Virus record (IMG/VR): IMGVR_UViG_3300017751_000269
Coordinates: 1 to 22,207 of that record
DNA length: 22,207 nucleotides
Source: a virus
Direction: 5' to 3' (one strand)
In this document: piece by piece, positions 7,569 to 22,207 of the stretch
Layout of the letters: each line of letters opens with the position of its first letter
How positions within the stretch are numbered: the stretch's first letter is position 1
Position numbers and translations under genes: made by a program
Notes under the pieces: generated by a model
Told to the model about the DNA's origin: nothing
Seen by the model: the letters and a program-made list of their open reading frames with translations, nothing else
Database searches by the model: none

Positions 7569-7594
7569 TGCAACTGCCCTTCGGGGTGGTTGCA
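7569..7594 (+). terminator. UUCG stem-loop, terminator-like without U-tract
   Basis: TGCAACTGCCC (7569-7579) pairs with GGGGTGGTTGCA-side bases 7584-7594 around a TTCG loop at 7580-7583, giving 11 pairs with two central G-U wobbles. It lies 14 bases after a stop codon and 20 before the next ATG. Neither strand has a T run after the stem, so it may act as an attenuator, a processing site or an mRNA-end stabiliser rather than a classical terminator. The fold itself is clear; the function is not. Confidence 0.55.
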
Positions 7595-7613
7595 AAACTA
7601 CAAAAAAAGAATT

Positions 7614-8351
7614 ATGGCAATAAGTATAGACACAATATATCAGAGAGTATTAACCCTTGCCAACAAAGAGCAACGCGGTTATATTACTCCACAAGAGTTT
7701 AACTTATTGGCAAACCAGGCTCAAATGCAGATATTTGAGTCTTATTTTTATTCAAAAAACCAAAGGGACAGAACAGAGGACGCTAGACCCAACGAAGTAG
7801 ATGAAACTGATATATCAGAACTTTTAAGCGCTAAGCTTGAACCATTTAGATTAATAGGTGCGGTTACAAATGGAGACACATTTCTTACCTCAATAGGTAT
7901 TAGCTCTATTGATAGACCAGTGTTTCAAGTGGGTAGAGTTTTTTTAGGCAACGATGTTTGTATAAAGCTATCTCTAAACGAGGTTAGTAAAATACTTAGA
8001 TCTAAGCGGCATCTACTTACTAAAACCGGTCAGTTTCCTATATACTGCGATAGCACAACGGTGGGTAAGGATATACAAGCTTACGCAGGTAGTGCAACTG
8101 CCCTTACTAGTCTTACAGCAGAGTATTTTGGTACGCCACGAAAAGCGGAGTGGGCGTATGTAGTTGTGGGTGATAGTAAAAAAGCTTTGTACAATGCTAA
8201 CGCTGCTGTTGATTTTGAGCTGCATAGATCAGAGGAAGACACTTTAGTTAATAAAATATTAGAGATGGCCGGTATTGTTATTAACAAACCTGGACTTGCT
8301 CAACTCGCTGCTCAAAGAGACGCTGCTGAAGGTTCAATACAGAAAATATAA
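7614..8351 (+). CDS. Probable head-tail connector / neck protein
   Basis: A 245-residue protein. The ATG at 7614 is preferred over an in-frame TTG at 7590, because the TTG lies inside the right arm of the UUCG hairpin while the ATG follows an A-rich leader (ACAAAAAAAGAATT). The N-terminal half begins with two helices, IDTIYQRVLTLANKEQ (5-20) and ITPQEFNLLANQAQMQIFES (24-43), then a charged linker. The middle (78-190) is beta-rich with IDRPVFQVGRVFLGN (99-113). The C-terminus has FELHRSEEDTLVNKILEMAG (201-220), a pattern I associate with conserved neck or ring proteins of crAss-like and marine podoviruses. It is four bases before the next gene, which has similar context. A joining or ring role between portal and tail is an inference from order and remembered similarity; no specific domain is seen. 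Confidence 0.8.
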   Translation: MAISIDTIYQRVLTLANKEQRGYITPQEFNLLANQAQMQIFESYFYSKNQRDRTEDARPNEVDETDISELLSAKLEPFRLIGAVTNGDTFLTSIGISSIDRPVFQVGRVFLGNDVCIKLSLNEVSKILRSKRHLLTKTGQFPIYCDSTTVGKDIQAYAGSATALTSLTAEYFGTPRKAEWAYVVVGDSKKALYNANAAVDFELHRSEEDTLVNKILEMAGIVINKPGLAQLAAQRDAAEGSIQKI

Positions 8352-8355
8352 ATAA

Positions 8356-9294
8356 ATGGGAATAGTAAGACAAGCCGCGCGAGCGTACTACGGAACAAAC
8401 GGAGAGCATGGTAGCTACCAATACATACCCTTAGATGAAGTAATAGACTCGTTCAATGCTACTTATGTAGGTAAAGACAAGATATGTGAGGGTATTTCTT
8501 TTAATGACATAACGTTTCATGCTATTAGAGGTTTACAGGAGCTGAGTTACGATACACTTAAATCTACAAAAGATTGGGAAGTAGTCATACCATCTACCTT
8601 GGTTTTAGTAATGCCCCTAGATTACATTAATTACGTGAAGCTATCTTGGAGCGATAGCGATGGTATTGAAAGAATTATATATCCCACTAGTAAAACATCT
8701 AATCCAAACAACGTAGCCACAAGCGACAATCCACTTGTTCAAGACTGGGGAGGCTGGGACACCGGCAACTCGCTAGAAACAACAACTGATTTAATTGAAT
8801 CTGAATCATCAGACACAAACGCTAATTACAAAGCAAACGCTGCTTCTGATATTGGCTCCGTAGATGCGGATAACATGGATGATGAGTTTGGTAACCTAGT
8901 AGGCGGTAGATACGGCATTGATCCTCAACATGCTCAAGCAAACGGGTCTTTTTTTATAGATGAAAGTGCAGGTAAATTTCATTTTAGCTCTAACATTGCG
9001 GGGAAAACAGTGATCTTAAGATACATAAGTGATGGTATAGCAGCTACGAGTAGTACGGACCAGTCTATTGATCTTACTAAAAGCATGGTGCCAAAACTAG
9101 CTGAGGAGGCTTTATATAAGCATATTCTATATGGAGTACTACTAGCTAGAAAAAACACACCAGGTGGGCTACTAGGTCAACTAAAAAAAGAAAGATATGC
9201 TGAGACTAGAAAAGCTAAGCTTAGGTTATCTAACATTAAAATAGAGGAACTTACACAAGTTCTTAGAGGTGGATCTAAAATGATTAAACACTAA
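8356..9294 (+). CDS. Probable head-tail adaptor / ring protein
   Basis: A 312-residue protein lying four bases after one neck candidate and three bases before the giant nozzle-like gene. The first 70 residues are helical, with DEVIDSFNATYVG near 28-40 and a segment ending GLQELSYDTLK around 59-69. Residues 74-96 hold a beta hairpin-like stretch (VVIPSTLVLVMPLDYINYVK, 76-95) that recalls adaptor and tail-tube proteins of podoviruses. Residues about 110-215 are a polar loop region rich in D, S, N and T. The C-terminal 70 residues are strongly helical and basic, with LAEEALYKHILYGVLLARKN followed by KAKLRLSNIKIEELTQVLRG, ending in MIKH. No catalytic motif is seen. The order portal, capsid, connector, adaptor, nozzle matches short-tailed phages, which is the main ground for the call. 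It could instead be a minor tail protein. Confidence 0.78.
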   Translation: MGIVRQAARAYYGTNGEHGSYQYIPLDEVIDSFNATYVGKDKICEGISFNDITFHAIRGLQELSYDTLKSTKDWEVVIPSTLVLVMPLDYINYVKLSWSDSDGIERIIYPTSKTSNPNNVATSDNPLVQDWGGWDTGNSLETTTDLIESESSDTNANYKANAASDIGSVDADNMDDEFGNLVGGRYGIDPQHAQANGSFFIDESAGKFHFSSNIAGKTVILRYISDGIAATSSTDQSIDLTKSMVPKLAEEALYKHILYGVLLARKNTPGGLLGQLKKERYAETRKAKLRLSNIKIEELTQVLRGGSKMIKH

Positions 9295-9297
9295 AGC

Positions 9298-12200
9298 ATG
9301 CCCGAAATAAAAAACGTTTTCTCTAAAGCCTTAATGAACAAGGACATGGACGAGCGCCTTGTCCCTGCCGGTCAGTATAGAGATGCTTTAAATATTGAGA
9401 TAGCAACTTCGGACGGATCTAACGTTGGAGCTGTGCAAACTGTGTCTGGCAATACTAAATACTCGAAAATGCTATCTAGCGCTGGGGTATACGATGTAGC
9501 TGCCAATAGCACTTGTGTAGCATCTATCGCAGACGCGAGTAAAGATAAGCTTTACTACTTTGTACATTCAGGAAAACTTTCAACAGACGGCAGCTTTAAT
9601 GATACGTGTAAAGATTATATACTAGAGTACGATACTTTAAACGAAACTCATAGATATGTTTTTGTTGACATATATAAAGTTAAAACGACTATAGATGGGG
9701 CTACCACTGGTAACGTTGTCACTGTTGATTTAGGCTACAACAACGCCACTGACATAACTGGTATAAGGAGAGGTATGTTGGTAACGGGTACGTTCACTAA
9801 TGACACTGGCGGAGATTTCGTCTCCCCTGGAGGTGCTACTATAGCAGATGGAAGCACATACACTGTTACCGAATCGCACAACGTTAGCATTGACATATTG
9901 GGTTACGAGAGTAACAAAAGAAAATATACGCTTAGCCACACCCTCCCTGTCGCAGATGGTGAGACTATTACATTTGTAGCGCCTAGGGTGCTAGGTTTTT
10001 CTAAACACAATATTATCACCGGTATAAATATATTAGATGATTCTATATATTGGACGGACAACTATGGTGAGCCAAAAAAGATAAACATACGAAGATGTAT
10101 AGCTGGTACAGGGGGTACAATTGATCTTTACGCGGCACCAAACGAAACAAACACGTTTGAGGGCGACACCCCGTATTTTCACACTAGATTAACGGTGAGT
10201 GAAAATATTGCTGCTGATAAACTAAAAACAGTTTATGGCACATGGATACCTGGTTTTGATGTTAAGGCCCCTGTGTATGTAGATGAGAGCCATATTACGG
10301 TTATAAAAAAAGCTCCTACGCAGCCTCTAGATCTAGAAATGAGTCGAAAATCATCGCCTAGGGTTAATGACGCTGGGGTTGAAAATCTTCCATACGCGGC
10401 TATTACTTCCGCGACTCTTACTGAGGGTCAAAATGCAATAACTCTTAACGCTCTAAGGGACTTCCGAGTGGGTGACGTGTTGCTTTTTGTTAATCAAGAG
10501 AACACAACCCTTGCAACTAGCTTTACTAATTCTGATGCTAGAGGTATAGTTACTCAATCAAATGCAGATGTTAATAACCTAGTAAGCAGCATAGTTGTAG
10601 ACATGCAGTCTATATCTGCAAACATAATAGATGCAACCAACGACTACTACGTCAGACTTGAAGACTCAGATCCTTTGTTTGAGTTTAAACTACCTAGATT
10701 TTCATACAGGTATAAATACGAAGATGGAGAATACTCTACCTTTGCTCCTTTCTCGCGTATAGCTTTTTTACCAGCAAATTACGAATATCTACCTAAGAAG
10801 GGGTATAACTTTGGTATGGTTAACCAAATTAGAGGTTTAAAGCTAAAGCAATACCACAGTAACAAATGGGCGATACCTCAAGACGTAGTAGAAATAGATC
10901 TTTTATATAAAGAAACAAACAACCCAACCGTATATACAGTAAAAACAATAAAGCCTGGCGATGCCGGTGCCGCTTTGTTGTGGCCTACGCCTGACGACAC
11001 GGGGGTTGAAGGGAATAAAAGAGGTGAGTATAAGCTTACTACAGATATGGTCCATGCGGTAGTTCCTTCTAACCAGCTTCTTAGACCTTGGGATAACGTA
11101 CCTAGAAAAGCTTTAGCCCAAGAGATTAGCGCTAATAGACTTATATACGGTAATTATCTTCAAAACTACACTGTGCTAAAAGATCCTATCATATCAGTGG
11201 GGTTAGTGAGTAGCGGGTTGGGAGTTGAGCCAGCTTTGCCTTCCGTTAAATCTTTACGCACATACCAAATGGGTGTTGTGTTTAGTGATGGGTATGGTAG
11301 AGAGACACCTGTCTTAACAAATGAAAACTCTTCCATAAGAGTACCTAAAAACCTATGCGGCAAAAGGAACAGAATAGAGTGTAGGCTTCTTGAAGGTAGT
11401 AGTATCCCAGAGTGGGCTAAGTACTACTCATACTATGTAAAAGAAACCTCCGTAGAGTATTATACTCTAGCTATGGACAGGTGGTATGACGCTTTTGATG
11501 GAAACATATGGCTTTCATTCCCTTCTTCGGATAGAAACAAAGTTGACGAAGAGACGTTTTTAGAACTTAAAAAATCCCATGGAGAATCTAAAGCTGTTTT
11601 AGAAAAAGCCAGGTATAAAGTTTTAGCTATAGAGAGTGAAGCCCCAGACTTTATTAAAATTGAGAAAAAGAGTTTAGGGCGTTTATACAACACGGCGGAT
11701 AGCATTGGATCCCCAAACTTTGGTTTTCCTGTTATAGATGGCCAACTTATAACTATTGAAGGCACCGCTTTTGAAAATATTTTTGGAACGGATTTTTTAC
11801 TTGACACACCTGATAGCTTAAGTTTAATTTTATATGGAGCTAATCAGCAGTCTAAAGAGTATGTTGTTGGAGCTGTGACCCAAGAAGGGGGTTTATATAG
11901 AATACAAATAGCTGATAAGTTTGGGGTTGATATCTCTTTTACTAGTACTAATAATTCATACTCTGGTGCAATTGATGACTTGAGTTTTGCTTTATTTGAG
12001 GGGGTGGTTAAAAATAAACCTGAGTTTGACGGTAGGTTTTTTGTTAAAATATTTAAAGACGCCGTCTTACAGAACAACATCCTTAATAGCAGTGCGCCAG
12101 AAAACTGGGTTGTAGATAAAGAGTACCAAGTTAAGTATCTTCACAATAACGGATACGCTTACACAAATCAACAACTTCCATCCCATGCATTAGGTAATTA

Positions 12201-15200
12201 TCATTTAGGAGGGACGAGCACAAATTTTTACGCAGGTACTGCTTACGACACAGGTCACCCAACAGAAAACAATTATCAAACAACCGATAGCGACGGGGTT
12301 TACTACTGGGGTGGAGGAAGTGAAACAAGTGGTAACGCTTGGGGTGTGAAAGCTAGTGACTTAAATGGTAACCCTGTAGGGGCTATTCACGAACAATCAA
12401 ACACTTACGGAGGAAATGCATTCGAGTTTTGGGAGGGTATAGCAAATGATGACAAAAGATGTTTATTTATTGATCATGGAACAGCTTACAGCTGGAATGG
12501 GCGGCGCACAAATCAACCAGGAAGATATGGGTTAGACGAATTTACTGGACAGTTTTGGGAAAATTATACCCAACAAACCGCAGCAGATGCAGCAGATGTT
12601 GGCTTTGTGGGTGGAGTCGATGGTGCTGGGGTCCTGGGCAATATGAGGCACTTTAGAGGGCAACCTAGTCGAGGTATTTGGCACTATAATGGAAACTGCT
12701 TTATGGACGTGTCGTGGACTAGAATGCACGGTGACTACCCTAGCGTTACAAATAGCGATGGAGACCTTACCCTTGAGACTACGCTTGAAGGTTCTGCCGA
12801 GCAAGCTCCCGCTTTTTTTGGTGACGCATGGGCCTTTGTTAAAGCGCTTGTTACTCCTGGAACTAGGTTTAGATTTAAGAGAGATCCAGATCAAAGCGCT
12901 ATATATGAAGTTGGCGAGGAGCCGCACCCTACAGCAGGTATAGGTTATTTATTCAGTGATGAAAATACTGTACTAGCTGGAGATGGAACAGGCGGCACGT
13001 GGAATACCGTAGCATATGGGGAAACTCAAAATACGCAGCTTGGGTACGCTAACGAACATATATACTACAACACTGCTGGAGTCCCAACAAGTATATATAC
13101 TGGGGCTTATGGTATTAGGAATTTTGTGAAACCAAACTTCAACCATTGGCAAATGGACCCGAGAAACGTCCGCCAGCGGTGGACTATAAACGTTCACGAT
13201 GGAACAGCCGAGAGGAACGGTATAGGCTATCATAGGGATGGTCCTAGTGGATATAGCCCTGTAAAAGGAACAAAATCTGGTCTAAATGGTGGTCCATTGC
13301 ATAGCGATAGTGAATATAGAAGAGCTATACGCCATGATGCAGGTGGAGGAAGTGGAGACGAGGACAAAAAGCACGACACCATACAAATAATGGTGCCTTT
13401 CTTTAGTACGACTGGACCAGACGCGGGTAACTTTACAGAGAAACCAGCTGTTTGGGAGACCGAGCCTAAGGAGAGCGTTGACCTAGATATATACTACCAA
13501 GCTAGTGGTTTAATACCCCTAGATCTTAATATAAAAACTAATGAAGAGTTATTACCTATAGGGTCTACTTTCTTTTTATCTGCACAAGACGGTAGCGTTG
13601 TAGGCGAAAACGCAGTTGATCTTGGCAATAATAAGTTCACGATAACAGAGTGGGATAAATACAATAGAATTAAGTTCACCCCGGCTATTCCAGAGTACTA
13701 CAAGGTAGATGAAAATCAATTAGTTAGATTCACAAAGCGAGATAATTACTCTTTACATTTAAAGCTACAAGGGAACATTCAAGGGGGTGGGTCAGCAAGC
13801 CCCACGGACAGCCTTTACGTTAAAGGTAATAGATCATTTCAAGAGCAATCAATTCATAATCGAGGTCATATATTAGACTGGAATAACTGCTGGTCGTTTG
13901 GAAATGGAGTAGAATCAGATAGAATACGCGACGACTACAACGCTCCTCAAATGGATAATGGTGTTAAAGCCTCTACGGTTATAGCAGAGCCGGTTCGTGA
14001 AGAGAAAAGAAAGCACGGCCTTATATGGTCTGGTATATACAACTCTACGACAGGAATTAACAACACTAACCAGTTTATAATGGCAGAGGCTATAACTAAG
14101 GATTTAAACCCTAGTTATGGCAGTATACAAGCGCTGCTAAATAGAGATACTAGACTAATGATGTTCTGCGAGGATAAAATCCTACGAGCTCAAACAAACA
14201 AAGACGCACTGTACAACGCGGATGGTAAACCGCAAATTGTAGCTAGTAACGCCGTTGTTGGAGATGTAACCCCGTATCAAGGTGATTACGGTATATCTAC
14301 AAACCCTGAGTCTATGGTGGCCACACCGTATCAAGTGTACTTTACTGACGCTGTGCGTGGGCAGGTTCTTGCTATATCCGGAGAGGGTGTGAGATCTATA
14401 TCCGACATAGGCATGAGGAACTATTTTCTAGAGGAGATGAATAAATATGTGTGGAGAGCACTAGGTACTCATGACGAAAGAAAAAATGAATACAACTTAA
14501 CTATATCTAAAAAGTTTAGGGAAAACCAAGAGGTACCACATGGTACTACAGAGGGAACAACTGGAACTACTATCTCATATAGCGAAAGATCTAAAGGATG
14601 GGTTAGTTTTAAATCATTTATACCACAAAATGGTTTAAGCGCAAATAACGATTACTACACCTTTGATAAAGGGCACATATATAAGCACCACGACACCAGT
14701 GTAGATAAAAACAATTTCTATGGCTTGGCAAATCTCTCAAGCATAACCACGTTGTTTAATGGTTCGCCTAATGCAGTAAAAAACTTTGCAACAATAAATT
14801 ACGAAGGATCGCAAGCTAAAGTTACAGAGTTTGACAGTCAAACAATTGAGTACTACAATAATAACTACAGCGCTAGCGGTAGCGGCGAGTCAAATGGATT
14901 AACGACTGCAGCAAGCCAAAATGACGGTGAGTATTTTAATCTTAGCGACAAAAAAGGTTGGTTTGTAGATAACATAACGACAAACCTACAGGTATGTAGA
15001 AAGCTTTTATTTATAGAAAAAGAAGGTAAGTGGTTTGCAACTATTGTTGGGGGTGATCATACGCCTGACGGTATCTCTCACTCGCCCTATAATTTGCTCT
15101 CTGACATACCTACAAATAATAAAGGTGAATCTACAGTACAAGGTATAGGTCTCGCTAATATTACGCACAGCGGTAGCGCTGGTAATCCTGAAAATCAAAT

Positions 15201-17475
15201 AACTTTAACTGTAGCTAATAACATAGGTACAGTGTGGGACACCGCAGATACCCTTGCTACTGAAAACAGCCGATGGGTGTGTAGCACAGCTTCGTTACAG
15301 AGAGTAGCGGGAGCAACTATTATAAGCACTGACAAAGTAAACCTAACGGTATCTCCTGTTATAAATGGGGTGAACTCAAATTTCCCACTTTACGCGGCTA
15401 ATTTACTTATACAAAATGCAACGGCAACTATAGACAACACCGGAGCTAATCCAGTGTATGTATATACTACAGACGCTGACACATACGTTACAGACACAGG
15501 TGGCGCAGATTGGGAAGATATAGAGGAAATTAGATTTAATGACCTCGGCACTCCTGGAGACCCTAACAACACAGTTAATGTTACGGTTCAGTTCAAGGCT
15601 GGCAGAGCCTGGCCGGCCACGTCTCTAACCTACTACATAGATATAGATGACGCGGCAGGAGTATCCGAGGTTCCAACTAGAAAAACTTGCTTGCTATCTA
15701 GGTACGCACGTTACGAAGGTCTTCAAGCGGCTCCTGTGGTTGCAAATATTGCTGGTAACGATATACTAGAAACCGTGCCTATTGCTAGTGGTGTAGTTAA
15801 CGGTGCTGGTGAGGTTGGACCTACAAACAAACATACTGGTACAGTTCCTGGCACTGGAACAAGTGAAGTGGGTAGAGTTACATTTGCGCGAACTAGTCCT
15901 CAGTACTATGGAAACGTTAGCGTTAAGTGGGATAATTTAGGTGCGTACGAAAACTACTACACTTCTTCTGTAGATGAAACATTTACGGGTGGAGTGAAAA
16001 CTGGGTTTACTGTAAGACTTTTTTACACGCCTCCACAGGAAGGTGAGTTAATGGTTGACCCAGAAGATTTCTGTAGTTTAGATCATAGAGCTACTATAGT
16101 TTACGACCTAATAACCCCTGACTTACCTCCTGGTGAAGGACCAGACGGTACAGACTCTGGCATGATTTGGAAAGTAACTGCTTTTAATGGATCTAACAAC
16201 GTAGGGTACAATAATGATAATAGCGCAGGTGGTTCGTTAGTGCCTTGGCCGTCAGGTCCTTGGATACCTAGCCAAGGTGGCATCGCAACCGTAATAGTTA
16301 CTGGTGACAGCGGATCAAACTACAACCTGCATATACAAAAGAAAACAAGTGTAGACAGTGACACCACAGCTAGCACGAATGGCTACTACAATCCTGAAAC
16401 GGCGGCGTTTCAAACAGCTCCTGTATCTATTCCAGGTACCATACCGGCCTCAGGGACATACTCCCACAGCATAAGTATTCCATCTGCAACGGCAAATACT
16501 AGGTATGACGTAACTGTAGACGGTGGTCCTTTTAATGGTGTTCTAACAACATTAGGTGAACCTTGCCCTACTCAACCAGGAGACTTAATGATACCTCAAA
16601 ACGGTATATACACTGTGGCTATAGATACAGAAGGTATTGACCACGAGGGCAACGTCATTGTTGCTGACTCATTCATAAAACCAGTTGGATTTGGTGGTTC
16701 TAATATATTCACTAAAACATGTATGAACCTACAAGGGATCCATGCTATAGGTAGCACTAGGCTAATATTAAAGTCTGTACCTAGAAACCTTAGAACCGGA
16801 TCATACGTTGTAAATCCTTTTGGTCAGACTCTTTCGACTTTTAATGCTATACAGCATTTAACTACTGTAACGGCCGTTAACGGCAATGTGGTTACTATAG
16901 ACAAAGCTACTCAAGTGGCTCTTGCAGATGATGACCAAATATGCTTCTTATCTAACAACGCATCTGTTAAACCTTTTGAAGTGCAAGTTACCAAAGGTGG
17001 TAGTGAGGCTGATATTACAGCTATAAAAACTAGTGTTACATGGGAGGACACGGTTGGAGGTCTTAACACAAATCGCGGGTACCAAGTTAATGGGACACCC
17101 ACAGATTCAAGGACAATCCCCGTAACCCCAAACACACGAGGTCTTTATGTTGGGATGAAAGTAACGAGTCCAGGTAGAATAACAAATGCAGCTGGGGGAG
17201 ACTTTACTTTTATAACCGAAATTGGTAGCCTTAATGAAATCACTTTAGAGGATACCCAAACTCTAGCAAACGACACTAACTTAACGTTCTCAAGCGGGGA
17301 CGGAAGTGGAAGCGCGGTCGCTGTAACTGTTCAAGAAGATGTAAGACTTCTTCATATACAAGCCTATATGAAAGTCGCGGGAAGCGTGGCTAAAATACAA
17401 GGCTATCTTAGGGTCGACAGCGTGCTAGGCAATTCTACAATACAAATTTATTCAGACGCTATTTTAAACCAATAA
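9298..17475 (+). CDS. Giant tail nozzle-like structural protein
   Basis: One uninterrupted 2725-residue reading frame. Residues 17-33 (DMDERLVPAGQYRDALN) match the opening of nozzle or stabilisation proteins related to P22 gp10 and T7 gp12, which close the distal tail end. Family-like segments continue at 607-623 (AQEISANRLIYGNYLQN), 726-745 (MDRWYDAFDGNIWLSFPSSD), 909-918 (EFDGRFFVKI), 1382-1390 (KPAVWETEP), 1682-1710 (starting FTDAVRGQVLAISGEG), 1767-1775 (GWVSFKSFI) and 1903-1912 (LLFIEKEGKW). Residues about 944-1361 are a region rich in G, N, W, Y and H. After about 1920 the chain is 800 residues of S, T, G, N and V-rich beta sequence. P22 gp10 and T7 gp12 are about 470 and 800 residues, so this is several times longer, though long versions occur in marine phages. 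The start is three bases after the previous stop. Nozzle family is likely; the middle and C-terminal parts may contact the host surface. Confidence 0.85.
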   Translation: MPEIKNVFSKALMNKDMDERLVPAGQYRDALNIEIATSDGSNVGAVQTVSGNTKYSKMLSSAGVYDVAANSTCVASIADASKDKLYYFVHSGKLSTDGSFNDTCKDYILEYDTLNETHRYVFVDIYKVKTTIDGATTGNVVTVDLGYNNATDITGIRRGMLVTGTFTNDTGGDFVSPGGATIADGSTYTVTESHNVSIDILGYESNKRKYTLSHTLPVADGETITFVAPRVLGFSKHNIITGINILDDSIYWTDNYGEPKKINIRRCIAGTGGTIDLYAAPNETNTFEGDTPYFHTRLTVSENIAADKLKTVYGTWIPGFDVKAPVYVDESHITVIKKAPTQPLDLEMSRKSSPRVNDAGVENLPYAAITSATLTEGQNAITLNALRDFRVGDVLLFVNQENTTLATSFTNSDARGIVTQSNADVNNLVSSIVVDMQSISANIIDATNDYYVRLEDSDPLFEFKLPRFSYRYKYEDGEYSTFAPFSRIAFLPANYEYLPKKGYNFGMVNQIRGLKLKQYHSNKWAIPQDVVEIDLLYKETNNPTVYTVKTIKPGDAGAALLWPTPDDTGVEGNKRGEYKLTTDMVHAVVPSNQLLRPWDNVPRKALAQEISANRLIYGNYLQNYTVLKDPIISVGLVSSGLGVEPALPSVKSLRTYQMGVVFSDGYGRETPVLTNENSSIRVPKNLCGKRNRIECRLLEGSSIPEWAKYYSYYVKETSVEYYTLAMDRWYDAFDGNIWLSFPSSDRNKVDEETFLELKKSHGESKAVLEKARYKVLAIESEAPDFIKIEKKSLGRLYNTADSIGSPNFGFPVIDGQLITIEGTAFENIFGTDFLLDTPDSLSLILYGANQQSKEYVVGAVTQEGGLYRIQIADKFGVDISFTSTNNSYSGAIDDLSFALFEGVVKNKPEFDGRFFVKIFKDAVLQNNILNSSAPENWVVDKEYQVKYLHNNGYAYTNQQLPSHALGNYHLGGTSTNFYAGTAYDTGHPTENNYQTTDSDGVYYWGGGSETSGNAWGVKASDLNGNPVGAIHEQSNTYGGNAFEFWEGIANDDKRCLFIDHGTAYSWNGRRTNQPGRYGLDEFTGQFWENYTQQTAADAADVGFVGGVDGAGVLGNMRHFRGQPSRGIWHYNGNCFMDVSWTRMHGDYPSVTNSDGDLTLETTLEGSAEQAPAFFGDAWAFVKALVTPGTRFRFKRDPDQSAIYEVGEEPHPTAGIGYLFSDENTVLAGDGTGGTWNTVAYGETQNTQLGYANEHIYYNTAGVPTSIYTGAYGIRNFVKPNFNHWQMDPRNVRQRWTINVHDGTAERNGIGYHRDGPSGYSPVKGTKSGLNGGPLHSDSEYRRAIRHDAGGGSGDEDKKHDTIQIMVPFFSTTGPDAGNFTEKPAVWETEPKESVDLDIYYQASGLIPLDLNIKTNEELLPIGSTFFLSAQDGSVVGENAVDLGNNKFTITEWDKYNRIKFTPAIPEYYKVDENQLVRFTKRDNYSLHLKLQGNIQGGGSASPTDSLYVKGNRSFQEQSIHNRGHILDWNNCWSFGNGVESDRIRDDYNAPQMDNGVKASTVIAEPVREEKRKHGLIWSGIYNSTTGINNTNQFIMAEAITKDLNPSYGSIQALLNRDTRLMMFCEDKILRAQTNKDALYNADGKPQIVASNAVVGDVTPYQGDYGISTNPESMVATPYQVYFTDAVRGQVLAISGEGVRSISDIGMRNYFLEEMNKYVWRALGTHDERKNEYNLTISKKFRENQEVPHGTTEGTTGTTISYSERSKGWVSFKSFIPQNGLSANNDYYTFDKGHIYKHHDTSVDKNNFYGLANLSSITTLFNGSPNAVKNFATINYEGSQAKVTEFDSQTIEYYNNNYSASGSGESNGLTTAASQNDGEYFNLSDKKGWFVDNITTNLQVCRKLLFIEKEGKWFATIVGGDHTPDGISHSPYNLLSDIPTNNKGESTVQGIGLANITHSGSAGNPENQITLTVANNIGTVWDTADTLATENSRWVCSTASLQRVAGATIISTDKVNLTVSPVINGVNSNFPLYAANLLIQNATATIDNTGANPVYVYTTDADTYVTDTGGADWEDIEEIRFNDLGTPGDPNNTVNVTVQFKAGRAWPATSLTYYIDIDDAAGVSEVPTRKTCLLSRYARYEGLQAAPVVANIAGNDILETVPIASGVVNGAGEVGPTNKHTGTVPGTGTSEVGRVTFARTSPQYYGNVSVKWDNLGAYENYYTSSVDETFTGGVKTGFTVRLFYTPPQEGELMVDPEDFCSLDHRATIVYDLITPDLPPGEGPDGTDSGMIWKVTAFNGSNNVGYNNDNSAGGSLVPWPSGPWIPSQGGIATVIVTGDSGSNYNLHIQKKTSVDSDTTASTNGYYNPETAAFQTAPVSIPGTIPASGTYSHSISIPSATANTRYDVTVDGGPFNGVLTTLGEPCPTQPGDLMIPQNGIYTVAIDTEGIDHEGNVIVADSFIKPVGFGGSNIFTKTCMNLQGIHAIGSTRLILKSVPRNLRTGSYVVNPFGQTLSTFNAIQHLTTVTAVNGNVVTIDKATQVALADDDQICFLSNNASVKPFEVQVTKGGSEADITAIKTSVTWEDTVGGLNTNRGYQVNGTPTDSRTIPVTPNTRGLYVGMKVTSPGRITNAAGGDFTFITEIGSLNEITLEDTQTLANDTNLTFSSGDGSGSAVAVTVQEDVRLLHIQAYMKVAGSVAKIQGYLRVDSVLGNSTIQIYSDAILNQ

Positions 17476-17476
17476 C

Positions 17477-17863
17477 ATGGCATACGCAACACTAACTTTC
17501 GGAGCTCCTATAAACGCATCTTGCCAAGTAGGTGATATAGCTTATTATGTCACTGTTACAACTCAAGACGGATTTGACACTGGGTTTACCGATGACGGCA
17601 CAAGCAACGGTATAGTAAAAATAGGTGATATAAGAGAAATCAACAATCCAAATGGAGCCGCGCCTACAATGAAAGTTGAAACAACCTTAGGGTTTGATGA
17701 GTTAAACGGGCAAAACGGTAAGTTTATAATGTTCACTAAAGATACCAGAGCGAACTTGAGTTCGCCGCTTGGTTATTATGCTAGTGTAAAGCTTGTTAAT
17801 GACTCTAAAACTGAGGCTGAATTGTTTAGCGTTAGCATGGAGGCTTACGATAGTAGTAAATAA
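17477..17863 (+). CDS. Small probable virion protein, function unknown
   Basis: A 128-residue protein whose ATG lies one base after the stop of the giant tail gene, so the two are very likely co-translated. It is beta-rich without helices of note: QVGDIAYYVTVTTQDGFDTG near 15-34, VKIGDIREINNPNG near 49-62, and a C-terminal part with LGYYASVKLVNDSKTEAELF and SMEAYDSSK. There is no signal peptide, membrane segment or enzyme motif. I recall small proteins with a similar C-terminal pattern next to long tail genes in marine phages, so a tail accessory or nozzle-binding role is plausible. It could also be a chaperone for the giant protein. The 52-base gap that follows is the largest after 7613, so this may be the last gene of a transcription or translation unit. 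Confidence 0.78.
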   Translation: MAYATLTFGAPINASCQVGDIAYYVTVTTQDGFDTGFTDDGTSNGIVKIGDIREINNPNGAAPTMKVETTLGFDELNGQNGKFIMFTKDTRANLSSPLGYYASVKLVNDSKTEAELFSVSMEAYDSSK

Positions 17864-17915: not shown

Positions 17916-18464
17916 ATGGGGGATATTAGCGACCAAACAAAAAGTAGCTTAGTAACTACTACTTATACTCTAGAGGACATAGACAGGATTGAAGATTTTA
18001 GGGACTCTATTATTGACTTTGAAAAACAACTGTCAAATATTGAAGGGTCTTATGGGGACGCTAATAAACCAGGTCAAGAAAAAGTGGCTAATGAGATAAA
18101 CACTTTGACTCATACTTTTGCTGGTGGTTGTTATGTTAGAGAAATAAACATGCCAAAGGGTCAACTGATGACTACTGGTATACATAAGAAGGAGCATCCA
18201 TTTTTTGTACTAAAAGGTGATGTGTCTGTTCTAACAGACTCGGGTATAGTAAGAATTGTGGCGCCGTACAGCGGTGTAACTAAACCAGGGACTAAGAGAC
18301 TTATATATATAAACGAAGACACTATTTGGGCAACTGTACATGCCACTGATAAGGAGACAGTTGAGGAAGTTATTCCTGATATAATAGCGAAAGACTTTAG
18401 CGATCCTGAAGTCAGTCTTGAAAAAGCTAGAGAGATGTTAAGAATTGAATCAGATAAATCATGA
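17916..18464 (+). CDS. Cupin-fold phage protein
   Basis: A 182-residue protein with a single cupin-like beta barrel at about residues 65-145. The first cupin motif region reads MPKGQLMTTGIHKKEHPFFV (79-98) followed by LKGDVSV, with H90 and H94 as possible metal ligands. The second is APYSGVTKPGTKRLIYINED (116-135) followed by TIWATVHA with H142. The spacing differs from the classic H-x-H motif, so metal binding is likely but an enzyme activity is not shown. The N-terminal 60 residues are helical and charged; the last 35 are a helical, acidic tail. I recall this cupin type as common in marine phage genomes near virion genes, with no known function that I can name. It opens the last cluster after an intergenic gap, and its stop overlaps the next start by four bases. 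A structural, decoration or sugar-binding role is possible. Confidence 0.8.
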   Translation: MGDISDQTKSSLVTTTYTLEDIDRIEDFRDSIIDFEKQLSNIEGSYGDANKPGQEKVANEINTLTHTFAGGCYVREINMPKGQLMTTGIHKKEHPFFVLKGDVSVLTDSGIVRIVAPYSGVTKPGTKRLIYINEDTIWATVHATDKETVEEVIPDIIAKDFSDPEVSLEKAREMLRIESDKS

Positions 18465-19200: not shown

Positions 19201-20559
19201 ATGGCAGATACAGCAATGGGATTAGATTATAGTTTATCAGGTGATACACTAAACCGCATTAAAAATGCTGGGGTAACTAGAGTACCAGAAACAGGGATAG
19301 GTGAAGCTATTTCAGGTATAGGGGAGACTATAACTGATTACGCTACAGAAGGTCAAGACGCAATGGCTGGGTGGGACGAAGGTTTCGCCATACAAGGTGA
19401 TAGAGGGTCATGGGCTTCGGGTGAATTATTTGATCAGTTTCAGGAAATGGAAGCCGGGTATAAAGAAGAGTTTTTACAGGCTGTAAAAAGAAGAGATGAG
19501 CCAGCGAAAGCTAGGCTACTCAAAGATCAAGGCGATAGATCATCTTCAATACAAGGGTGGAATGATGTTATGGCAACAGCAAAACAAATCAACGACGGAG
19601 TTGGATGGGGGTCAGGTTTAGGTGACGAGGATAAGTATGTGCTAGGTGTTTTATCTAGAAATGACGGAGCTGCACGGGTCCGTATGGGGGATAGAGGCGA
19701 AATGGTGTTTGATATTCCGCTACAGAATGGTACTATTAGAACTTTAACTAGAAGAGAGGTGGATAAAATGGTTGCGAAAGGTACAAACGACTATGAGTCA
19801 GAGTTATCTTTTATGGAGAACAACGATGCTTTAACTAAAGCTGGTCTAAACGGGGATTTATTTAATTTTGGTACTCAAAAAAGAAGGAACCGTATATCTC
19901 TAACTCCAGATAAACTTCCGAATTTAATGAATCAAGATTATGGAGGTGGATCTTTTAGAGAGCACATCAAAGATCACCCAGACTTTCAAGGTCATATTTT
20001 ACTAGACGGTCATGAGGACTCGAATAATGATGGTGTTATAAACCTACATGATCTATCTGCAGATGAAATGGACCTACTCATTGATGAGATGGAGAAAACA
20101 CCGGAAATAGCTAAAGACTACGTGTCTGATTGGATGACGCTAATTCAACAAAGGGCATGGCAAACTGGACATGATGAGAAACTTAGAAGAGATGAAGAGC
20201 AACTTAGAAGCACTAGGTCAACTAGCACGACAAAGTTAACGGCTGAAGAGAGAAACCTCAACCGGGCTGAGAGAGATCGATTGAAGAAGATACAGGAAAG
20301 AAGTCAAAACATAACAATAAATGGCAAAGGTTTTGGGCGTGTTGATCAATATTACTTAGATGACGCGGGGTTTTGGCGAAATAAAAAAATACAGATGCCT
20401 GATGGGTCTGATGCTAAAATTAGGGATATGAAACTTGACGAGCTTGGAGTTGATGTAGACGTGTTTGAAGCTGAGCTAAGAAGACTACAGATTGGCGGTG
20501 CAAATACATCTTCAGCAGCTAGTGATCTAATAAACGATACGCGAGACCTATACTCATGA
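19201..20559 (+). CDS. Probable internal virion protein with EF-hand-like loop
   Basis: A 452-residue protein starting five bases after the ejection-protein stop and overlapping the next start by four bases. I do not recognise the whole protein. Residues 1-60 are polar and glycine-rich, 70-120 charged and helical, and 120-260 mixed. Residues 273-284 (DSNNDGVINLHD) form a canonical EF-hand or dockerin-type calcium loop, with D, N, D, G, I, N and D at positions 1, 3, 5, 6, 8, 9 and 12. The following residues (LSADEMDLLIDEMEKT) look like the exiting helix, and the part before it is less clearly helical, so this is a single loop rather than an EF-hand pair. Residues 320-375 are highly charged with an S/T-rich patch and end in a K/R/E helix. 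Context suggests a virion cargo or ejection protein; an enzyme has not been excluded. Confidence 0.7.
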   Translation: MADTAMGLDYSLSGDTLNRIKNAGVTRVPETGIGEAISGIGETITDYATEGQDAMAGWDEGFAIQGDRGSWASGELFDQFQEMEAGYKEEFLQAVKRRDEPAKARLLKDQGDRSSSIQGWNDVMATAKQINDGVGWGSGLGDEDKYVLGVLSRNDGAARVRMGDRGEMVFDIPLQNGTIRTLTRREVDKMVAKGTNDYESELSFMENNDALTKAGLNGDLFNFGTQKRRNRISLTPDKLPNLMNQDYGGGSFREHIKDHPDFQGHILLDGHEDSNNDGVINLHDLSADEMDLLIDEMEKTPEIAKDYVSDWMTLIQQRAWQTGHDEKLRRDEEQLRSTRSTSTTKLTAEERNLNRAERDRLKKIQERSQNITINGKGFGRVDQYYLDDAGFWRNKKIQMPDGSDAKIRDMKLDELGVDVDVFEAELRRLQIGGANTSSAASDLINDTRDLYS

Positions 20560-22207
20560 ACGATACAGAACTAGAGCAGATTGTTCAAAAGATGATTGAC
20601 GCTAACAGGCCTAGACATGAGATTTCGGCTTATATAAATCAGTACGATGCCGACATGGCGAGTGAAGCAGCGGGTACACCTACACTGGAAAATCAAGTTG
20701 AGCCGCTTGAAGTAGAAACAGAACCGACCGCTGAAGAAAAGGCTGAAAAAGAAAGAAAAGCAACCGCTAAAAGTTATATATCTAGCGCTATAGATTTAAC
20801 TAAAAACAAAACTCTTGGTGGGACAATTTTTGATGCGGAAGAAACACTAACGCCGCAACTAAAAAACATATTACAAGCTATAGATCCTAAGTGGGAGGTA
20901 GAGCAGGGAACAGGAGGCAATTGGCTTGGTATTACGGATGTTGAGGGTTCTGGAGATTGGTTTAATCCAAATAACATCACTCTTACAAACCCAAATGGAA
21001 TAAAAAGAAATTTTGCTATAACTGATCAAGAGGTTCTAAAAGAGGAGATATCTTCTTTTATGATTGAAAACCCTAAGCAATCTGCGTCTAAAATAAAACA
21101 GGAAGAAAATCTTAAGGAAGAGTTAGCTACAGCTTTCAACGACAACCCGTCATTGTACGGTGAGATGTTAGATCCTTCTAAAATGACTTTATCAGATAAA
21201 AGAGCTTATGAAAGTGATCCAACTGAATATTTAAGAGAAAGAGTTAGAGACCACGTTGGAGGTTTTGGATGGTTTGGGTTTGGTGGTGAAAGAGCAGAAG
21301 AGTATAACGAGCTAGGTAACGCTGATATAAACAAAATTGTAGATGATGTTTTTAATCTTAACCTTCAGCAAGAGTTGACCAATAGAAGAGCCGTACTTAG
21401 AGACAACAGTGACGAGGCTACTTACGTTGAGGGTGGTGGCACTTCAAGAGATTGGCACGATAAGGATAGAGCTGGAGCTATAGCTACATACGCAGGTAAA
21501 AACCTTGAGATAGCTGAGCTTGTAGAGGATTTAAACCATGGAGGTTTAAACGAAGCTGATTGGAAAGCTAAACATAAAAAGTATAAAGATCTTAAAGAAA
21601 AAATAGGTAAAACCTATGGTGTTATAGACCTGTATACTGGTAAGCAGATACACACGGACAACTTAACTCAAGCCCAAGAGTTAGCGAATAAACTTGGGCC
21701 TCAAGCGTCTGTCCTAGATACTGATAGCGCAGAAACGCAATATGAAGGTTTGGATATTGATGACCTACAGTTGGAGTATGAAAGAAGTGTACTAGAGTTG
21801 AGTGGTTTCAATAATGAGATCAAGAACACTATGCTTGAGTTTAACAATAAGGACGCTCTTGGTTACGACTTTGATTACACTGATGATGCTATTTTAAAAC
21901 CTATGTCTATTGCCGACTATATGAAGCAGATGTGGGGTTACGGTGGTATGCAAGGAGCTATGAACAACCCGGTTAACTATATCCCTAAAGGTTTTACCGA
22001 GGATGAGTGGAAAGCAAGGTTAGCCAACTATAGACAACAGCAAATAGACTTCACTACGGATAATGCCGCCTTGCAGAGGATGTACCTTCTTAACGAAGGT
22101 ATTATGGATGAGGATATGACTGTGCTTAATCAAGTTCATACAGCGGGTAAGTCGTTTTTAACACCTTTTGTAGGTGCATCCGAAGCACAAAGAATATTTG
22201 GATCTAC
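20556..22207 (+). CDS. Large probable internal virion protein, 3' truncated
   Basis: The frame opened by the ATG at 20556, which overlaps the previous stop as ATGA, stays open to the window edge for at least 550 codons. The N-terminus (ELEQIVQKMIDANRPRHEIS, 4-23) is a short helical hairpin-like motif that I associate with large phage internal proteins. Residues about 48-72 are a V/E/T/K-rich, probably disordered linker. The rest is acidic and mostly helical, with a glycine-aromatic patch GGFGWFGFGG at 235-244, DHDRAG-type charged turns around 300, and ADYMKQMWGYGGMQGAM near 453-469. No polymerase, lysozyme or protease catalytic motif appears in the visible part. In short-tailed phages, including crAss-like ones, the gene block after the ejection proteins carries very large cargo proteins, some with RNA polymerase or muralytic domains, so the unseen C-terminus may tell its role. 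Confidence 0.75.
   Translation, partial: MNDTELEQIVQKMIDANRPRHEISAYINQYDADMASEAAGTPTLENQVEPLEVETEPTAEEKAEKERKATAKSYISSAIDLTKNKTLGGTIFDAEETLTPQLKNILQAIDPKWEVEQGTGGNWLGITDVEGSGDWFNPNNITLTNPNGIKRNFAITDQEVLKEEISSFMIENPKQSASKIKQEENLKEELATAFNDNPSLYGEMLDPSKMTLSDKRAYESDPTEYLRERVRDHVGGFGWFGFGGERAEEYNELGNADINKIVDDVFNLNLQQELTNRRAVLRDNSDEATYVEGGGTSRDWHDKDRAGAIATYAGKNLEIAELVEDLNHGGLNEADWKAKHKKYKDLKEKIGKTYGVIDLYTGKQIHTDNLTQAQELANKLGPQASVLDTDSAETQYEGLDIDDLQLEYERSVLELSGFNNEIKNTMLEFNNKDALGYDFDYTDDAILKPMSIADYMKQMWGYGGMQGAMNNPVNYIPKGFTEDEWKARLANYRQQQIDFTTDNAALQRMYLLNEGIMDEDMTVLNQVHTAGKSFLTPFVGASEAQRIFGS

Follow-up and report, generated by a model that had tools for sequence, protein, structure and literature searches.

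A tail muzzle gene fused to a tip protein in a crAss-related podophage from a metagenome

Few phages are as abundant as the crAss-like phages, and we know of no account of how their muzzle senses the host. A metagenomic IMG/VR virus record of 22207 bases, the whole of which was analysed here and is called the window, holds a tail protein gene of 2725 codons. The question raised by this locus is what kind of tail protein is so long, and how its length came about.

A crAss-type muzzle and its layout

The frame is real, starts with ATG and lies exactly where the sequence-only reading of this DNA had placed it (Table 1). As the longest competing frames within 9298-17475 are only 84-131 aa, chance is excluded as the source of 2725 open codons. 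The genes come in the order terminase, portal, a 382-aa acidic protein, capsid protein, a 286-aa protein, two small structural proteins and the giant ORF, followed by ORFs of 128, 182, 244, 452 and 550+ aa. The gene directly ahead of the giant ORF occupies the place of the crAss001 tail tubular gene gp43, which lies ahead of gp44, and its product is probably a tail-barrel ring protein; judging from gene order, the one before it probably encodes a second ring protein. Another locus (L001) is identical to the window across their overlap and stops inside the giant gene, and a scan of genome contigs found no relative. The last large ORF of the window (20556-22207, 550+ aa) runs off the end and belongs to no family, and the corresponding region of a relative (G001 C1 16062-26621) holds a frame of more than 3000 aa; these perhaps encode a virion-carried ejected protein.

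The closest company in PHROG and phage searches were Cellulophaga, Flavobacterium and Maribacter podophages related to crAss phages. The window phage is a crAss-related podophage most like marine phages, and its named relatives infect Flavobacteriia. It should be noted that the taxonomy lines of Calle, phi19:3 and elemo read Pervagoviridae, Pachyviridae and Elemovirus, without Crassvirales, while those of crAss001 and phi14:2 give Crassvirales.

The window protein is a crAss-type tail muzzle, similar to the gp44 known from gut crAss phages. It matches phrog_14478 (virion structural protein) with E 2e-113, and the Pfam family PF25731 (crAss_MUZ) covers residues 1600-1789 at 29.8 bits, above the cut-off of 27. 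PF25729 (crAss_MUZ_C) was found at residues 1803-1914, scoring 22.6 bits in the scan of the full protein and 26.8 bits in that of residues 1526-1925 alone, both under the cut-off of 27, and is present in 29 of 30 relatives (E <= 0.01). Further, we aligned profiles of the window protein by hhalign to a gp44 family profile of six crassvirus muzzles. Residues 11-269, in the 1-500 profile, corresponded to gp44 11-153 (E 1.9e-12, prob 97.7) and residues ~1600-1839 of the C-terminal part to gp44 1055-1281 (E 1.9e-17); the middle region went undetected and is linked by fold search only, and the tip (1985-2725) gave nothing.

The AlphaFold model of residues 456-1565 (pLDDT 64.7, pTM 0.54) had the gp44 chains 7qok_A and 7qol_P as top Foldseek matches (E 1.1e-5 and 2.0e-5, prob 1.00), and VIA-align gave Z 9.2 to gp44 178-1014 over 339-351 residues, the runner-up reaching Z 7.3 over 84 residues only. 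No true match came from searching PDB sequences with the whole protein or with profiles of the tip, the middle and the C-terminal core. Since hmmsearch of the PDB with the 1526-1925 profile alone did not reach gp44, the link at the C-terminal end is carried by profile-profile alignment and Pfam.

The nozzle landmarks reported earlier from residue 17 to about 1912 were well placed, as family landmarks are found from residue 1 to about 1914-1925. The relation to nozzles was upheld, while the family is more precisely that of the crassvirus muzzle gp44, by Pfam, by hhalign at both ends and by Foldseek and VIA; a direct match to gp10 or gp12 was found neither by phmmer to the PDB nor in PHROGs or Pfam, all of them searches by sequence.

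Features of gp44-like muzzles are a ring-joining domain, a seven-bladed propeller made from the two ends of the chain, and a hexamer whose gate loop lies in blade 4. By homology, residues 1-460 would form the ring-joining domain and the first part of the propeller. An occupancy profile places insertions in them at about 126-225 and 276-325. Variable insertions also occur in the following region, residues 941-1525 being the most variable. Among the relatives, residues 1-940 and 1526-1925 are occupied in nearly all, 941-1525 variably and 1926-2725 in about one fifth. In gp44 the IG2 and crass folds are an insertion in the propeller, muzzle length varies through insertion in the IG2/crass region, and the crass domain has been proposed to contact the cell surface (Bayfield et al. 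2023, PMC10172136); the same paper reports a resemblance between the nozzle of T7 and the ring-joining domain and propeller of gp44.

Table 1. Features of the window at and around the giant ORF. Residue numbers refer to the 2725-aa protein.
Feature	Position	Strand	Basis
Virion structural protein, TTG start; probable second ring protein	7590..8351	+	phrog_14543
Virion structural protein, directly upstream of muzzle; probable tail-barrel ring protein	8356..9294	+	phrog_13977
Muzzle-tip fusion ORF, 2725 aa	9298..17475	+	ORF and translation, ATG start; phrog_14478; Pfam crAss_MUZ
N-terminal muzzle region, residues 1-460	9298..10677	+	hhalign to gp44; occupancy profile
IG2 / crass-fold region, residues 456-1565	10663..13992	+	AlphaFold model, Foldseek, VIA
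C-terminal propeller part and MUZ_C, residues 1526-1925	13873..15072	+	hhalign; crAss_MUZ_C in relatives
Fusion junction WDTAD, residues 1980-1984	15235..15249	+	relatives stop and restart here
Fused tip protein, residues 1985-2725, 741 aa, beta-rich	15250..17472	+	homologous to separate ORFs of relatives
Tip Ig-like beta-sandwich, residues ~2286-2436	16153..16605	+	VIA
Tip small beta-barrel module, residues 2485-2553	16750..16956	+	VIA; shared motif HMM
128-aa gene, homologous to C-terminal domain of unsplit muzzles	17477..17863	+	HMM; alignment
182-aa protein, short tail fibre / tail fibre adhesin family	17916..18464	+	PHROGs; tblastn

Length, the fusion junction and the interrupted muzzle

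The size had been described as several times the usual, and this holds against P22 gp10 and T7 gp12 but not within the protein's own family. It is about twice as long as the crassvirus muzzles examined (1340-1503 aa), and 75 non-redundant complete ORFs of relatives, a sample picked by similarity to the window, nearly all from IMG/VR contigs and not an unbiased census, span 946-3328 aa with a median of 2082, 13 of them being at least 2725 aa. The window protein is plainly neither exceptional nor unique in size among its relatives. Past the core, 39 of 76 proteins stop within 90 residues and 33 have 150-1154 more, and we regard the size as that of a known protein with a swappable add-on rather than of a new kind of nozzle. 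Muzzle length is no family trait, and environmental muzzle genes can be split or fused.

The add-on of the window protein is a second protein: a muzzle of about 1984 aa is fused to a 741-aa tip. The chain passes through the junction as ...GTVWDTADTLATENSRW, with GTVWDTAD at the end of the muzzle part. In four close relatives (L012, L067, L106 and L146) the muzzle stops at the equivalent residue and a new ORF begins within ~20 nt. The muzzles of L106 and L146 end in ...DIWDATAD-stop and, one base on, ATGGCAGACTGG opens the new ORF, while that of L067 ends in ...AIWDETPD-stop with the same kind of restart; in these three the stop and the next ATG lie within one or two bases (TAATATG, TAACATG). 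The muzzle of L012 ends in ...GAPWD-stop, with an ATG restart ~20 nt later. An uninterrupted frame through the junction was found also in L008/L010/L013, L011 and others.

A profile of the tip matches the separate ORFs of relatives with HMM E-values down to 1e-241. The match is full-length in the L012 ORF (611 aa), in the L067 ORF (743 aa) and in a frame of 740 aa on the 66.9-kb L146 record. More distant separate tip ORFs lie just after the muzzle in L019 (E 7e-57), L018, L015, L021, L072, L040 and L027; the tip is an independent gene in L012, L067, L106, L146, L019 and others. On a portal tree the fused window is sister to the split L012, with 90% portal identity, and the fused L008 to the split L067. 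Fused and split states interleave, and the supported branches force at least four changes among the labelled rows. Most outgroups are split, which would favour repeated fusion. A literature search of open papers found no report of a muzzle-tip fusion.

These observations bear on three other accounts of the long frame. The sequence-only reading took the last ~800 residues for a long extension of the nozzle; they are real and predicted beta-rich, but they belong to a separate ORF in relatives and probably came by gene fusion, not by growth of the muzzle itself. That a single ancestral giant nozzle grew its own host-contact extension without a separate gene would fit the one open frame seen here and in L008/L010/L013, L009, L011 and L014, but we find it unlikely, as close relatives and outgroups encode the extension as an ORF of its own at that position, and fused and split forms alternate along the portal tree. 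The muzzle end of the split relatives could also be a programmed frameshift or readthrough site yielding both forms from one gene, which the one or two bases between stop and ATG in L106, L146 and L067 might suggest; such close stop-start junctions are however ordinary translational coupling, the gap in L012 is ~20 nt, and we give this account very little weight. An assembly or sequencing artefact joining two genes comes to mind with any metagenomic virus record, but here it is hardly credible, since the stop-free fusion occurs in several independent relatives (e.g. L009, L011, L014, L008/L013) and the muzzles of L008 and L013 are identical yet come from different metagenomes. We retain gene fusion as the probable origin of the frame.

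The gene following the fusion is related to the end of other muzzles. A profile of the 128-aa protein matches residues 1395-1491 of the 1493-aa elemo muzzle (E 6e-9) and residues 1246-1321 of the 1324-aa Calle_1 muzzle (E 7e-7). It also matches, at their ends, the separate second halves of phi19:3, MW202828 and Panino, with the alignment pattern GD..Y / G.I / F..F.K / GYY..V.L / ELF..... S in common. As the 128-aa protein corresponds by homology to the last domain of unsplit muzzles, the ancestral muzzle gene is interrupted here, and the tip lies between the muzzle core and the muzzle's own last domain, the latter now a separate gene. No link was found between the 128-aa domain and the C-terminus of gp44. 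Another candidate for the ancestral muzzle end, displaced by an insertion, was the final 35-residue stretch of the window protein; it was rejected, the HMM placing the domain in the 128-aa gene.

Muzzles are split at other points too. The core of MW202828 (L003:11965-17982) is split inside the propeller part, with an unrelated 183-aa gene annotated 'putative glycosidase' between the halves; in phi19:3, L021 and L030 the break falls almost at that point too. In L087:9102-17882 the split is near the N-terminus, giving ORFs of 348 and 2573 aa.

The tip and its possible contact with the host

The AlphaFold model of the tip (19 rows) reached pLDDT 69 and pTM 0.41, hence only single domains are usable. 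The sandwich at residues 2286-2436 gave VIA Z 8.4 to 8f9l, an ester-bond repeat domain of an adhesin, over 116 residues at rmsd 3.0, with a tie of many Ig-like folds near Z 7-8. For the beta-barrel (~2472-2554) Z was 10.1 to residues 103-180 of the phage Mystique tail tube 9n71_A and 8.3, at 24% identity, to residues 279-371 of the LKA1 tailspike 4ru4. A stretch covering two beta-barrel modules resembles the tail-tip proteins of phages Chi and JBD30, with a high rmsd, and the whole tip model found generic multi-Ig proteins in Foldseek. A profile of the barrel motif is clear at 2485-2553 only, with weak second copies elsewhere in the window protein. Pfam and PHROGs returned no domain for the protein's own tail, and neither a catalytic nor a lectin domain was found in the tip, the Ig-like domain and the small beta-barrels being all that was recognised. 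The barrel motif also occurs in ORFs directly upstream of the muzzle in several relatives (L066:8680-9993, L081:1645-2931 and L074:8651-9994).

The tip diverges fast. Identity to relatives is 30-34% in the tip against 54-62% in the adjacent core (1526-1925) of the same pairs, and 34-47% in residues 941-1525; terminase and portal in those loci show 80-96% and 75-90%. In two close-strain pairs dN in the tip was 2.5-4 times that of the C-terminal core, and the middle region evolved at least as fast. The dN/dS ratio was ~0.14-0.18 in the tip versus 0.18-0.32 in the middle region and below 0.4 everywhere, so that dN/dS, well below 1, gave no sign of positive selection in the tip.

The muzzle tails of other relatives differ in content: many have GC[TM]DxxAxNYxxxAxxDDGSC repeats, three have fn3 and one has a Hint-type end; the muzzle tails of others are replaced by unrelated sequence or absent. 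The repeats, which fill the muzzle tails of L082, L066, L046, L053, L087, L160, L065, L029 and others, are of a kind known from secreted Bacteroidota proteins, and look as if borrowed from hosts. The muzzle of L036:15722-19084 has at its end a domain of the Hint/intein type (PT-HINT E 1e-9), the terminal motif being FFANSVLVHNKG, and self-cleavage at the tail tip would be possible there.

Fast divergence of the tip, swapping of tails among relatives and Ig-like and tail-tip-like modules are what is expected of a host-facing, replaceable tip. Contact of the tip with the host surface is plausible and is our leading, putative reading. The suggestion made earlier that the extension serves host contact is in line with these modules and the fast divergence; it is not backed by positive selection or a specific binding domain. 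The accompanying claim that the window has no separate fibre gene is not supported, as the product of 17916-18464 matches phrog_12032 'short tail fiber protein' (E 5e-31) and phrog_24280 'tail fiber adhesin' (E 7.5e-25), with tblastn matches in Vibrio, Alteromonas and Shewanella phages. The true receptor binder may be this 182-aa protein. A search of the near-complete relative G001 for further fibre genes found no recognised family, which says little since such genes are poorly annotated. The same record holds, on the minus strand, a 764-aa ORF (L176:10400-12691) with Por_Secre_tail (E 1e-11), the C-terminal sorting domain of Bacteroidota type IX secretion; in G006, a fused relative, the corresponding region also contains an ORF of that length.

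In the arrangement that we infer and consider probable, a hexameric crAss-type muzzle (residues 1-1984) would carry the fused tip, which would aid host contact. The muzzle part, with its ring-joining domain, beta-propeller, IG and crass-fold regions, would close the tail channel. The tip, a second tail protein encoded by the next gene in relatives and covalently fused here, would probably lie at the far end of the muzzle and help in contacting the host surface, and the fusion would couple docking and gate opening in one chain. The 128-aa protein would dock back onto the muzzle. Further, we speculate, and only tentatively, that the muzzle gene is a plug-in platform, in which a variable host-contact module was inserted between the muzzle core and the ancestral C-terminal domain and has repeatedly passed between a separate and a fused state. 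If so, a single chain would link the binding of a receptor to the opening of the channel, and host range could shift by swapping tips on a conserved gate, the swappable tips being the tip homologues, the GCTDxxAxNYxxxAxxDDGSC repeats, fn3 and the Hint-ending tails.

Alternatively, the tip could be a structural cap or stabiliser, or a platform for assembly or anchoring of fibres such as the 182-aa protein, and make no host contact. Purifying selection on the tip, the match of the small beta-barrels to structural components of phage tail tubes and tips (9n71, 8vjh, 8rk3) and the fibre-annotated gene two genes downstream agree with such a role. It fits less well with the tip's much faster divergence relative to the core and with the many relatives whose tails are missing or replaced, a pattern unusual for a structural core; we regard a cap or platform as possible but less likely, and a tip that aids host contact remains the preferred reading.

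Comparison with known systems

The crAss-type muzzle was already known; what is new is the fused tip and the interrupted terminal domain. Natural one-gene and two-gene forms of muzzle and tip offer ready domain boundaries for expression and structure work, and with them one can test directly if host range is set by the muzzle tip.

The phiCrAss001 gp44 (PDB 7qok, 7qol, 8ckb; PF25731/PF25729) has a homologous N-terminus, IG2/crass-fold region and C-terminal propeller part, and like the window muzzle gene its gene directly follows that of a ring-type tail protein. It is 1371 aa long against 2725 aa. Compared with gp44, the window protein has large insertions in its first part and in the crass region and a fused 741-aa tip, and the window carries the terminal domain of Flavobacteriia-phage muzzles as a separate gene. 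The muzzle-type proteins of Cellulophaga Calle_1/phi38:1 (1324 aa), Flavobacterium elemo (1493 aa) and Cellulophaga phi19:3 (1613 + 241 aa) share the order of the core and the portal-to-muzzle gene order with the window, but unlike the window protein they have no tip; the C-terminal domain lies inside the muzzle in Calle and elemo and in the split second half in phi19:3. The nozzles T7 gp12 and P22 gp10 have the same place as the window muzzle and the closing role proposed for it, but they are much smaller, have no crass fold, tip or insertions, and show no sequence match to the window protein.
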